Of a DNA stretch of 6,575 bases, positions 3,342-6,575 are shown in pieces (positions within the stretch are counted from its first letter, which is position 1; each line of letters starts with the position of its first letter). The position numbers and the translations under genes are program-made. This DNA comes from Mailhella sp. (lineage in GTDB: Bacteria; Desulfobacterota; Desulfovibrionia; Desulfovibrionales; Desulfovibrionaceae). Below the pieces are notes generated by a model. That model saw only the letters and a program-made list of their open reading frames with translations, searched no databases and was not told the origin of the DNA. The stretch spans positions 1 to 6,575 of the forward strand of contig JAKSQA010000058.1 of the NCBI GenBank assembly GCA_024404335.1. The letters are read 5' to 3'.

Positions 3342-4103
3342 GTGCGCAGATCCACCATTCTCATCCTGGTCTCACTGCTGCTCGTATCCGTCGTCGGCTA
3401 CCTTCTGCCGGAAAAGGATGCCGGCACGACCGACAGGATACTGATGCGGAACCTCGGCGGCCGCGTGGTCTTCGACCACAAGACGCATGCCGAATCGTAC
3501 GGACTCCAGTGCATCACCTGCCATCACGACGCCGCCGCCCACGACAAGGCCGGCCGGAACTGCAGGGACTGCCACGGAGCATCCATGGACGCCGGCTTCG
3601 TCCGCAGCCATCAGACGGCCTTTGCCGGAGCCTCCGAGTGCGCGGCATGCCACCATGTCGCCATGGAGCCGAAGAAGGGCTGGCACGAGTTCCACGCGGC
3701 ATCCGTGGACCCCGACTGCCGGAAGTGCCACCACGAGGACCGGAGCATAGAGCCCGAGCCGCGCAGGTGCGCCGACTGCCACCTTTCCGACAAGGCGCAG
3801 GGCCCCATCCTCGCCCTGAAGGACGCCGCCCATGCGCGCTGCTCCTCATGCCATGAATCGGTCTTCAAAGACGGCGAAGGCAGAAAATACTGCACCGTCT
3901 GCCACGAGCGCGCCGACAGCGGCAGGAAGGCCCTTGCCGGCGAAGGCATCGGCAGCGCCCTGACGAAGTGCTCCCTCTGCCATGAGAAGGAGCCCAAGAA
4001 GCTCGTGCGCGGCAGCATGGAGGCCTTCCACGGCCTGTGCATCGGCTGCCACACGAAGAAGGGCGGCCCTGTAGACAACTGCGCCCAGTGCCACACGAAA
4101 TAA
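3342..4103 (+). CDS. dhcA: Decaheme c-type cytochrome associated with Rnf (DhcA-like)
   Basis: The 253-residue protein has ten canonical CXXCH heme motifs, with cysteines starting at residues 57, 74, 100, 126, 143, 167, 184, 210, 233 and 247. Eleven further histidines (46, 49, 62, 67, 90, 105, 115, 118, 131, 164, 230) are enough for bis-histidine ligation of all ten. Residues 5-22 are a hydrophobic signal peptide or signal anchor after MRRS, so the hemes face the periplasm; there is no obvious lipobox. The part from VVFDHKTH (42-49) through the CITCHH motif resembles class III cytochrome c3 modules. In Desulfovibrio a decaheme cytochrome (dhcA) precedes the rnf genes, and in Methanosarcina a multiheme cytochrome does likewise; both are thought to exchange electrons with Rnf. 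Here it starts with GTG and ends 12 bases before rnfC, so it is almost certainly co-transcribed. Role inferred: redox link between Rnf and the periplasmic cytochrome c pool. Confidence 0.92.
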   Translation: MRRSTILILVSLLLVSVVGYLLPEKDAGTTDRILMRNLGGRVVFDHKTHAESYGLQCITCHHDAAAHDKAGRNCRDCHGASMDAGFVRSHQTAFAGASECAACHHVAMEPKKGWHEFHAASVDPDCRKCHHEDRSIEPEPRRCADCHLSDKAQGPILALKDAAHARCSSCHESVFKDGEGRKYCTVCHERADSGRKALAGEGIGSALTKCSLCHEKEPKKLVRGSMEAFHGLCIGCHTKKGGPVDNCAQCHTK

Positions 4104-4115
4104 CCGGGGTGGATA

Positions 4116-5366
4116 ATGAAACAGCGCCATCAGATACTGAACGACCCGCGGTTCCGCCTCGTCTATGACGAGCACCGCCCCTTCACCGAGGCCCCCGCGC
4201 CCAGGCACCTGCGCCTCAACCGCGAAGGGTTCACCCTTGCCCCCGGCGTGAAGAAGAAGACGCAGGTCTACCCGGGCATGCTGCTCGCCACCCACCCCTC
4301 CATGGAAAAGGGCGATCTCCATTCCTCGGTGTACGGCGTCATCTCCGACATCAACGTACGGAGCATATTCATCGACTCGGCCGACCCCGCCGACCTGGAC
4401 GGAAGCGTGCGCGACGCCGTCGTCGAGCCCTTCGACCTCCTTGCGAGCGGGCTTGAGGGCGACGCGCTCATCGAAGCCGTGAAGAAGCTCGGCGTCAACA
4501 CGAAGTCCATAGGCAAGAAGTGCGACGTGCTCGTCATCAACGGCCTCAACCCCGAGCCCGGCGTCGCCTGGGCCGAGCCCATGCTCGACGGCCACTGCCC
4601 CGAGATCGGCGCGGCCATAAAGCTCCTCTGCCGCATCGGCAGGGCCGGAAGGCTCATCCTCGCCGTGCCCGAGGGAACCGTCATCGATTCCAGGGAATTC
4701 GACGGCATAGAGATCGCCTATGTGGAGCCGGAATACCCCAACAGCATCGGCGAGCTCCTCATAAAGCGCATCACCGGCATAGAGCTGCCCGAAGGCTGGG
4801 ACTACGTGGGCATCCACAACGTATGGAGCCTCGGAAGGGTGGCCCTCAGGGGGCTCCCGCTCATGCGCACGGTCATCACCATCGGCCGCGGCGCGCAGCA
4901 TGAGAACTTCATCGTGCGCAACGGCACCATCGTGGGCGACCTTCTGGAAGACGCCGGCATCGAGGTCGAGAACGGCGACACCATATTCCGCGGCGGCCCC
5001 CGCCGCGGCGAAGGGCTCGACAGGCTCGACCGCAGCATCACCAAGGGCGCCATCGGCTTCTTCCTCATGAAGGCCGGCGAGGTGCCCCCCATGGACGGCG
5101 ACAGCCCCTGCATCAACTGCGGCGCATGCGTCCATATATGCCCCACCCGCATCGATCCGCGCATGCTGAGCCGCTATGCGGAGTTCGCCCGCTTCGACAT
5201 GTCGCGCAAGGCATACTTCGGCCTGTGCGTCGACTGCGGCCTGTGCGGATACGTATGCATCGCCCGCCGTCCCGTCCTCCAGTACATCCGCCTCGCCATC
5301 GCGAAACTCGAACAGGAAGACGCCATCAAGAGGCTCGTGCCCATCGAGCCGATCGGCAGGAACTGA
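4116..5366 (+). CDS. rnfC: RnfC subunit of Rnf complex, variant without FMN/NADH loop
   Basis: This 416-residue peripheral subunit ends with two 4Fe-4S motifs: C332-x2-C335-x2-C338-x3-C342-P and C371-x2-C374-x2-C377-x3-C381, followed by VLQYIRLAIAKLE, a typical RnfC signature. The second motif ends in Cys-Ile instead of the usual Cys-Pro. Usual RnfC proteins are flavoproteins with an N-terminal GGIHP segment and a glycine-rich G-x-G-G-A-x-F-P-T loop binding FMN and NADH. Neither is present: the loop position is occupied by KKLGVNTKSIG (123-133), and the following NGAECEPY-like block reads NGLNPEPGVAW (142-152), keeping only the EPG. The rest of the Rossmann-like fold (LVING, GRLILAVPEG) and SLBB-like region (IVRNGTIVGDLLEDAGIEVENGDTI, in 266-290) remain. 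ATG at 4116 follows GGGGTGGA (4106-4113). It lies between the cytochrome and rnfD in one operon. Identity is strong; loss of NADH reactivity is inferred. Confidence 0.9.
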   Translation: MKQRHQILNDPRFRLVYDEHRPFTEAPAPRHLRLNREGFTLAPGVKKKTQVYPGMLLATHPSMEKGDLHSSVYGVISDINVRSIFIDSADPADLDGSVRDAVVEPFDLLASGLEGDALIEAVKKLGVNTKSIGKKCDVLVINGLNPEPGVAWAEPMLDGHCPEIGAAIKLLCRIGRAGRLILAVPEGTVIDSREFDGIEIAYVEPEYPNSIGELLIKRITGIELPEGWDYVGIHNVWSLGRVALRGLPLMRTVITIGRGAQHENFIVRNGTIVGDLLEDAGIEVENGDTIFRGGPRRGEGLDRLDRSITKGAIGFFLMKAGEVPPMDGDSPCINCGACVHICPTRIDPRMLSRYAEFARFDMSRKAYFGLCVDCGLCGYVCIARRPVLQYIRLAIAKLEQEDAIKRLVPIEPIGRN

Positions 5367-5406: not shown

Positions 5407-6372
5407 ATGAGTGACAAGAAACAAGTCCTTCTGGCCGTAAGCGCCCCGCCGTTCTGGCATTGCGGCCGCACCATCCGGTCGTTCAGCCTGCACACCCTGC
5501 TGGCGCTCGCCCCCGCCGCGGTGCTCGCCGTCATGCAGTGGGGCATCCCCGCCGCGCGCGTCATGGCGCTCGCCATGCTCGCCGCCGTGCTCACCGAGAC
5601 CGCCTGCCGCCGCGCCATGGGCGCGAAGATGACCTGGGGCGAAGACGGCACCTCCGCCATCACGGGCCTCCTGCTCGCCTTCCTGCTGCCGGCCTCCGCC
5701 CCCTGGTGGATCGTCGTCCTGGGCGCCGCAGGCGCCGTGGGCATCGGCCGCATGGCCTTCGGCGGCTACGGGGCCAACCCTGTGTGCGCCACGCTCGTCG
5801 GCTGGGCCCTCATCTACGTGTCGTACCCCCTGCCCATGGACGCCTCGGCCACGCTCCTCTCCACCGACCTCATCGACCCCCTCGCGAAGCTCAGGGCCTT
5901 CGGTGCCGACGCCGTCGGCCTCTCAAGCCTCGATCTTCTCCTCGGCCGGCAGCTGGGCGGCCTCGGCGCGGCCCAGTCGGGCGCCATCCTCCTGGGCGGC
6001 ATCTACATCGCGGCGCGCGGCATCGTGCACTGGCAGATACCGGCCGCCTTCCTGCTCGGCACCGCGGCCACGGCCTCCGTATTCTGGATCGCCGACCCGG
6101 CAGCCCATGCGGGCCCCCTCTTCCACATCTTCGGCGGCTCCACCATGCTGGCGGCGTTCTTCCTCGCCACCGAAGGATCCTGCTCGCCCCACCGCGTAAT
6201 CCCCATGTGGATCTTCGGGCTGATCGGCGGCGCGCTCGTCGTCATCATCAGGACGTTCGGCTCCTACCCCGACGGCGCGCCCTTCGCCGTCATGCTCATC
6301 AACCTGCTGGCGCCCATGTGCTCCGTCATCCCGACGTTCCCCTTCGGCTACCGCAACGGAGGAAGAAGATGA
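5407..6372 (+). CDS. rnfD: RnfD membrane subunit of Rnf complex, lacking the usual flavin-attachment motif
   Basis: This 321-residue integral membrane protein has about nine or ten hydrophobic helices, and its length is usual for RnfD. Family signatures are DGTSAITGLLLAFLLP (80-95), FGGYGANPVCATLVGWA (118-134), LLGGIYIAARGIVHWQIP (195-212) and RTFGSYPDGAPFAVMLIN (282-299). RnfD normally carries FMN bound covalently to the threonine of an (S/T)GAT-type motif followed by PL, in the segment after the fifth helix. Here that segment reads STDLIDPLAKLR (152-163), with Asp157 where the threonine would be expected, so covalent flavinylation at that site looks lost. ATG at 5407 was chosen because the longer open frame upstream overlaps rnfC in another frame. 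The weak CGGGA site lies six bases upstream. The stop overlaps the rnfG start (ATGA at 6369-6372), indicating coupled translation. Identity is strong; the flavin loss is an alignment-by-eye inference. Confidence 0.92.
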   Translation: MSDKKQVLLAVSAPPFWHCGRTIRSFSLHTLLALAPAAVLAVMQWGIPAARVMALAMLAAVLTETACRRAMGAKMTWGEDGTSAITGLLLAFLLPASAPWWIVVLGAAGAVGIGRMAFGGYGANPVCATLVGWALIYVSYPLPMDASATLLSTDLIDPLAKLRAFGADAVGLSSLDLLLGRQLGGLGAAQSGAILLGGIYIAARGIVHWQIPAAFLLGTAATASVFWIADPAAHAGPLFHIFGGSTMLAAFFLATEGSCSPHRVIPMWIFGLIGGALVVIIRTFGSYPDGAPFAVMLINLLAPMCSVIPTFPFGYRNGGRR

Positions 6373-6575
6373 AAAGCATGATCCAGATGATCATCGTGCT
6401 CTCCCTGCTCTGCGGATCGGCAGGCTTCTGCCTCTCGTACCTCAAGATGAGCACGGCCGAGAAGATCGAAAGCCAGGTGCTCACCTTCGTGCAGGGCCCC
6501 GCCATCCTCGAGGTGTTCAGGGCTGCGGAGAACTCCCCCATAGCCGACCGTGCGGCATTCACGCTCAGCGACGGC
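6369..6575 (+). CDS. rnfG: RnfG subunit of Rnf complex, N-terminal part (cut by window edge)
   Basis: The first 69 residues are present and the frame is open to the right edge. The start MKSMIQMIIVLSLLCGSAGF gives one N-terminal membrane segment (about 4-25), then a charged periplasmic start with KMSTAEKIESQ (30-40), as in RnfG proteins. RnfG is a single-span periplasmic flavoprotein with FMN attached to threonine in an SGAT-type motif; that region lies beyond the window and cannot be checked. Identification rests on position directly after rnfD, the ATGA overlap with its stop, and topology, since the sequence seen is short. In cytochrome-linked Rnf systems RnfG is a likely electron donor or acceptor for the periplasmic cytochrome. 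Confidence 0.82.
   Translation, partial: MKSMIQMIIVLSLLCGSAGFCLSYLKMSTAEKIESQVLTFVQGPAILEVFRAAENSPIADRAAFTLSDG

Follow-up and report, generated by a model that had tools for sequence, protein, structure and literature searches.

An RnfC homologue without the FMN/NADH loop, encoded beside a ten-haem cytochrome in Mailhella sp.

Rnf in sulfate reducers of the Desulfovibrio type is drawn as a ferredoxin:NAD+ pump and has been built into energy models as such (PMC4215793). The rnf locus of a Mailhella sp. raises the question of whether NAD+ is indeed where the electrons go. The window, the whole stretch of DNA analysed here, is an entire contig of 6575 bases from a genome that is 69% complete. 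Mailhella is a gut bacterium, and the best named matches to the RnfC of the window, among those listed, came from Mailhella sp., a member of the Desulfovibrionaceae, Desulfovibrio and Bilophila.

The rnfC gene (4116..5366, forward strand) encodes a 416-aa RnfC homologue without the FMN/NADH loop. Its residues 123-149 are KKLGVNTKSIGKKCDVLVINGLNPEPG, in agreement with the residues given for this region in an earlier note on this DNA, and the claim made there that the G-x-G-G-A-x-F-P-T-x-x-K loop is missing was borne out by alignment against solved RnfC structures (7zc6, 8ahx and 9eri) and 20 canonical RnfC of the same phylum. The place of the canonical GxGGAxFPTxxK is taken in this alignment by G126-N142 (4491..4541, forward), where 15 residues lie between the anchors Gly126, at a helix end, and Asn142. 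Between the same anchors the canonical proteins have 28 residues in 19 of 20 cases and 27 in one, a net loss of 12-13 in the window protein, and the GxGGAxFP Gly-rich loop is absent. The N-terminal GGIHP-type motif is likewise missing, as had been noticed, GGxHP not occurring in the protein. The acidic ECEP block had also been read as changed, and here the claim holds in part: in alignments NGLNPEPG (4539..4562, forward) replaces N-G-x-E-C-E-P-x, with the first Glu changed to Asn and Cys to Pro, but the block is not gone, since the second Glu, E147, is kept. Finally, YPNSIGE (4734..4754, forward) replaces YPQG[AS]EK in alignments that include the solved RnfC. Thus, compared with the canonical NAD-type proteins of C. 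tetanomorphum (7zc6), A. woodii (9eri) and A. vinelandii (8ahx), the window RnfC is without the FMN/NADH loop, the ExE pair, YPQGxEK and GGxHP.

This state is widespread among relatives. A loose search with TIGR01945, the model of NAD-type RnfC, gave matches in all 119 genomes of the organism's family, only 4 of them above the curated cut-off of 245.95 bits (the window protein scores 140.1 bits), and all 4 also hold a divergent copy; in the phylum survey the cut-off was exceeded in 100 of 395 genomes. For comparison of loci, 80 neighbourhoods were picked by RnfC score and genome, blind to neighbour genes, and 79 named loci, among the matches listed, came from a search with motifs taken from the subfamily of the window, which favours that subfamily in the sample. 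With the window included and four exact duplicates dropped, 156 distinct loci were obtained, near-identical ones being kept in. The loop motif is present in 20 of these (18 from the phylum survey, some included because of a divergent copy in the same genome, and 2 from the family survey) and absent from 136, hereafter the loop and loopless loci. GGxHP is kept in 15/20 loop RnfC versus 0/136 loopless RnfC. Loop loss marks a whole set of Rnf systems and is not special to the window protein. In an alignment of 21 close kin N142 and P148 are invariant, and L144, N145 and P146 nearly so. Since the loop motif is missing from so many loci and the replacement is itself conserved in close kin, chance or a sequencing slip is unlikely; sequencing error or pseudogenization was ruled out by the identical deletion in kin and by the open frames. 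Misalignment of a loop sited elsewhere in the protein, which the earlier note had named as the outcome that would overturn its reading, was rejected, since a motif scan of the 136 loopless RnfC turned up nothing like GxGGAxFP at any position.

A structure model, a check that the earlier note had proposed, is confident (pLDDT block means of 96 and 92 across residues 121-140) and has the RnfC fold, including the C-terminal ferredoxin domain, with only a short loop at the place of the FMN/NADH loop. Given the deleted loop, the replaced acidic and YPQGxEK motifs and the short loop of the model, we regard it as well supported, on sequence grounds, that this RnfC would not use FMN or NAD(H). It seems to us very improbable that the protein still binds both through a rebuilt, unrecognised site. 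Such a site could draw on the kept E147, on LNPEP, which shows conservation and not decay among close kin, and on a weak Pfam match to Complex1_51K (E 0.0072, 16.7 bits versus a cut-off of 31.2), but it would have to do without the Gly loop and what follows it, a deletion of 12-13 residues in all, and with YPQGxEK and the first Glu replaced.

Both 4Fe-4S motifs are intact, as previously read: C332, C335, C338 and C342 and C371, C374, C377 and C381 make up the two CxxCxxCxxxC motifs required of RnfC. The first (C332-C342 with P343; 5109..5144, forward) and the second (C371-C381; 5226..5258, forward) match PF13187 and are invariant in the close-relative alignment. All eight cysteines are found in 135/136 loopless RnfC, the exception (L199) being a truncated reading frame, and their retention suggests that loopless RnfC may still carry electrons. 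The same cysteines rule out an identity as NqrA of Na+-NQR, which is cluster-free. A PduS-type, RnfC-like cobalamin reductase was ruled out by domain order, which in the window protein is normal and not permuted (sandwich domain after the clusters). The permuted, PduS-like order was seen in L006, L007 and L009. The last of these (G000:C23:411-1352) lies in the window genome and is an RnfC relative with a GAGGAGLP loop that hints at a bacterial microcompartment. It and the window rnfC are the two listed RnfC-family matches in this 69% complete genome, and no canonical RnfC was found elsewhere in it among the matches listed (best 2 of 6). An RnfC search of a plasmid collection gave 21 records, all under 60% identity, with the annotated ones being RsxC.

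The gene that ends 12 nt before rnfC (3342..4103, forward) holds ten CxxCH motifs, confirming the adjacent decaheme cytochrome of the earlier note. It encodes a ten-haem class III-type c cytochrome, in the position of DhcA and with a hydrophobic N-terminus, that matches PF02085 (Cytochrom_CIII, E 2e-17) and PF14522; its best NCBIfam match, a TmcA-like c3 (80.9 bits), is below cut-off. The window thus has a multihaem c cytochrome in its rnf operon, as in Methanosarcina. As c-type haem attachment is periplasmic, this and the hydrophobic N-terminus make a periplasmic location of the protein likely. PMC11434368 reports that in Desulfovibrionaceae rnf and a ten-haem CbcC-like cytochrome occur together, and draws the Rnf-linked cytochrome on the cytoplasmic side. 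Both a decahaem gene beside rnf and the idea of a ferredoxin:cytochrome c3 reaction are already in print (PMC4287179, PMC4841214, PMC10920352).

Scoring the cytochrome link as a same-strand ORF with at least 3 CxxCH adjoining rnfC, we found it at 0/20 loop loci versus 119/132 assessable loopless loci, four loopless loci being not assessable for the upstream gene. The score-chosen set by itself gives 0/20 versus 45/60 (2 of the 60 not assessable), and the named set with the window gives 74/76, the other 2 not assessable. None of a further 22 distinct loop loci, with flanks of at most about 1.5 kb, has a multihaem ORF, and of the 8 genomes in which one locus of each type was read, 7 carry the cytochrome at their loopless locus and none carries it at its loop locus. 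Thirteen assessable loopless loci are without an adjacent cytochrome. One genome has three loopless rnf loci (L062, L063 and L064) with 10-, 5- and 10-haem cytochromes, and a loopless, cytochrome-linked system with fused RnfB (L197) sits on a contig labelled Candidatus Eisenbacteria, outside the Desulfobacterota.

A further loss, beyond what the earlier note had seen, lies in RnfD (321 aa; 5407..6372, forward), which matches PF03116 (E 2.8e-77) and the solved chains 7zc6_D, 8ahx_D and 9eri_D. In canonical RnfD a conserved Thr is the point at which FMN is covalently attached (PMC11334425). In the window this Thr, within [ST]xATP in canonical RnfD, is replaced by D157 (codon 5875..5877, forward), a placement with which the pairwise alignment to 7zc6_D agrees, while in that to 9eri_D the site falls within a gap. 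The window RnfD thus has no covalent-FMN Thr, which, with the cytochrome in the operon, is another difference from the canonical NAD-type Rnf. Scored within the motif [ST]xAT[PM], the Thr is in register at 20/20 loop loci versus 0/117 cytochrome-linked loci; the pattern does match at three of the latter (L065, L068 and L194), always off-register and with Ala at the site. Among the 13 assessable loopless loci without cytochrome the motif is found in 4, and as it is wanting in the other 9, the losses are not strictly tied to the cytochrome.

Downstream, the window holds the start of RnfG (6369..6575, forward), recognised with an RnfG profile built from relatives, and the contig ends ahead of the flavin site; the 69-aa piece gave no Pfam match. 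The order rnfC, rnfD, rnfG of an Rnf operon is therefore present, with E, A and B seen only in relatives, as the window assembly is without RnfB, RnfA, RnfE and most of RnfG. A search for RnfB elsewhere in the 69% complete assembly gave only a weak ferredoxin match. In cytochrome-linked relatives the cysteines of RnfA, RnfE and RnfB are kept. The RnfG Thr (SGAT) is retained in 54/56 loci with fused RnfB and in 45/45 loci with short RnfB and cytochrome, but as the motif is found in only 15/20 loop loci, its retention does not set the loopless type apart.

The fusion just mentioned joins RnfB to a GltD-like NAD(P)H/FAD module. Leaving aside 32 loci with unreadable RnfB (3 loop, 29 loopless), it is found in 56/107 readable loopless loci versus 0/17 loop loci, for example at L062:1972-4074 (reverse) and L066:10837-12948 (forward) and at 54 further loci. 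The fused protein is 686-716 aa long in 55 of the 56, and the two that were scanned have an RnfB N-terminus followed by Fer4_20 and Pyr_redox_2 domains. For many Desulfovibrionaceae, PMC11434368 (2024) describes a 'loss' of rnfB and an FAD oxidoreductase that ends the operon; in the loci that we read, this 'loss' is fusion. NAD(P)H could thus enter through the window's own, unseen RnfB, were it to carry such a module; the outcome, an NAD(P)H:cytochrome complex, would be a parallel to NQR. The frequency of the fusion and the domains of the two scanned proteins speak for this, but all 44 readable RnfB of the window's clade are short (285-325 aa) and module-free, a 45th member having no readable RnfB, and we rate this reading as very improbable. 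For the same reason, no known NAD(P) site is seen in operons of the window's type. Separate same-strand GltD-like ORFs were seen a few kb from canonical rnf genes at L106 (12029-13468, forward), L108 and L109, of which only the one at L106 was scanned with Pfam.

In a FastTree analysis of RnfE, RnfA and RnfG (140 loci, 580 columns), which like all our trees is unrooted or display-rooted on the loop group, the loop loci and four loopless loci (L083, L086, L127 and L129, of which three have a flavodoxin gene) make up one side with support 1.0. The cytochrome-linked clade, with support 0.98, comprises 103 of 104 such loci and two loci cut off upstream; L124, with a 4-haem ORF and short RnfB, falls outside it. 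Within this clade the window type, with short RnfB, is a sub-clade of 44/45 loci and L189 (support 0.997) that adjoins 14 ten-haem systems with fused RnfB, and in a tree of RnfB N-termini the fused and short forms separate. The haem number of the cytochrome follows the Rnf tree. Given this shared ancestry the associations reflect a single event or a few; Fisher values of 1e-16 and 2e-5, which ignore kinship, overstate them and are not independent evidence.

Where, then, might the electrons leave? In characterised Rnf they pass from ferredoxin through RnfB, the RnfA/E cluster, the FMN of RnfG, the FMN of RnfD, riboflavin and the RnfC clusters to the RnfC FMN and NAD+ (PMC9588780, PMC12174285). 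With the RnfC loop and RnfD Thr lost, we lean slightly toward a window Rnf that runs one way, from cytoplasmic ferredoxin to the periplasmic ten-haem cytochrome and not to NAD+. The sequence part of this explanation (loop deletion, acidic and YPQG changes, the RnfD T-to-D replacement, intact clusters and adjacent cytochrome) is established by the alignments and motif readings. Ferredoxin would reduce RnfB, then the RnfA/E cluster and then the FMN of RnfG on the periplasmic side, and relatives retain the path this far, with RnfB short and free of the NAD(P)H module in the window's clade. As the covalent FMN of RnfD and the FMN of RnfC would both be gone, the return leg to NAD+ would be broken, and the FMN of RnfG would give its electrons to the cytochrome. 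Ion pumping would depend on the RnfA/E-RnfG steps. RnfC would hold RnfD and RnfB assembled, its two clusters being idle or forming a second, cytoplasmic port for single electrons. By analogy with the Methanosarcina model (PMC4023990), exit at RnfG is the simplest reading. The earlier note's interpretation as a whole thus receives partial support: RnfC probably makes no use of FMN or NAD(H), while its proposal of the cytochrome as redox partner is favoured, short of proof, by co-occurrence, near-monophyly and loss of the RnfD covalent-FMN site. As the note also suggested, RnfC may be kept as an iron-sulfur or structural subunit.

The kept RnfC clusters are the main puzzle, eight cysteines being odd in a subunit off the electron path, and a second one-electron port at RnfC is the main rival to exit at RnfG. 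The cytochrome might instead be a source, with electrons from periplasmic H2 or formate passing through it to RnfG, the riboflavin of RnfD and the RnfC clusters, and from there singly to ferredoxin or flavodoxin, with the ion gradient as driving force. The near-universal cysteines of loopless RnfC, in which the two-electron FMN/NAD site is gone, would be accounted for in this way. Another loopless type encodes a flavodoxin-domain ORF between rnfB and rnfC, D. vulgaris is said to need Rnf for N2 fixation (PMC4215793), and two-subunit Nqr/Rnf-like complexes without the RnfD-type flavin site are predicted to pass electrons anyway (PMC11334425). However, loss of the RnfD Thr in all 117 cytochrome-linked loci weakens the RnfG-RnfD-RnfC leg, the flavodoxin type retains that Thr and is cytochrome-free, and Price et al. 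thought reverse operation unlikely (PMC4215793); we consider this direction unlikely. The flavodoxin ORFs lie at L083:8323-8802 (reverse), L086:4764-5246 (reverse) and L129:6428-6904 (forward), and flavodoxin may be the partner of RnfC in that type.

Experimental work on Desulfovibrio bears on exit at RnfG to the ten-haem cytochrome. The DhcA-Rnf of D. vulgaris (DVU2791-2798) and D. alaskensis (Dde_0580-0587), usually described as an Fd:NAD+ oxidoreductase, has the same order of cytochrome, C, D, G and so on, the comparison being by order and size; the D. vulgaris sizes (RnfC 43.5, RnfB 30.9 and DhcA 27.8 kDa; PMC10920352) fit the window type. Published 20-nt primers for D. alaskensis matched 0/221 loci and 0/288 genomes, and data on strain G20 are thus transferred by description. 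Published statements in favour of such exit are that ferredoxin:NAD+ experiments with vesicles did not succeed in D. alaskensis (PMC4841214) and that, of two roles proposed for the Rnf of D. vulgaris, one is ferredoxin:cytochrome c3 (PMC10920352). In D. alaskensis, a species likened to the window type by description, loss of rnfA lowers the proton-motive force relative to the parent strain (PMC4841214). In G20 the rnf genes are needed on H2, formate, ethanol, malate and fumarate, and dhcA is described as without phenotype save in one experiment (PMC4215793), a point against exit through the cytochrome, although Tp1-c3 might substitute for DhcA in the dhcA mutant. The limited need for dhcA in G20 would also fit electrons leaving at RnfG to the general periplasmic cytochrome c3 pool, with the ten-haem cytochrome as accessory or regulator, but its gene adjoins rnfC in nearly all assessable loopless systems and its haem number tracks the tree; we find this improbable.

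The closest parallel to transfer to the operon's own cytochrome is Methanosarcina acetivorans, compared here by description, whose Rnf likewise has a multihaem cytochrome, MmcA, in its operon, does not use NAD and ends at cytochrome c in the published model; its RnfD has the SGTF motif, unlike that of the window (PMC4023990). For the Desulfobacterota subfamily as a whole we propose, tentatively and at slightly less than even confidence, that the U-shaped path from ferredoxin to NAD+ was interrupted at two flavins, those of RnfD and RnfC, and redirected to a multihaem cytochrome in the periplasm. In some branches a fusion would have shifted the NAD(P)H site to RnfB, and in the window's branch the site would be gone, in parallel with the origin of NQR from Rnf. 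If RnfC in these bacteria is without a flavin/NAD site, the energy models of many sulfate reducers need another electron acceptor, and the unsuccessful vesicle experiments would gain an explanation. These cytochrome-linked complexes would also be a natural test of the Rnf ion-pumping site, as RnfD in them is without its covalent-FMN site, to which a published model links the gate. In those portions of the literature that our search covered, no statement was found of an RnfC without the FMN/NADH loop, or of an RnfD without the flavin threonine, in these bacteria; we make no such claim for print at large.

A few observations concern other rnf types and flanking DNA. Among the 120 matches listed of 4945, a search for Methanosarcina RnfC by way of L122 returned none so named. 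L122 and L123 represent a loopless, cytochrome-free type with short RnfB, and their rnf clusters include an RseC/MucC-family gene (L122:2434-2853, reverse; L123:12404-12838, forward). A scan for Rex-like operators gave 4 matches at no more than 2 mismatches versus 1.23 expected, a number reached in 5 of 200 shuffles and thus too weak a signal to rely on, and promoter and terminator scans were at about chance level. On the reverse strand of the window, 451-2731 encodes a UbiD-family decarboxylase, a 124-aa PAC_bac protein and a UbiX-type flavin prenyltransferase, which resemble the VdcB/VdcC genes for non-oxidative hydroxyarylic acid decarboxylase.
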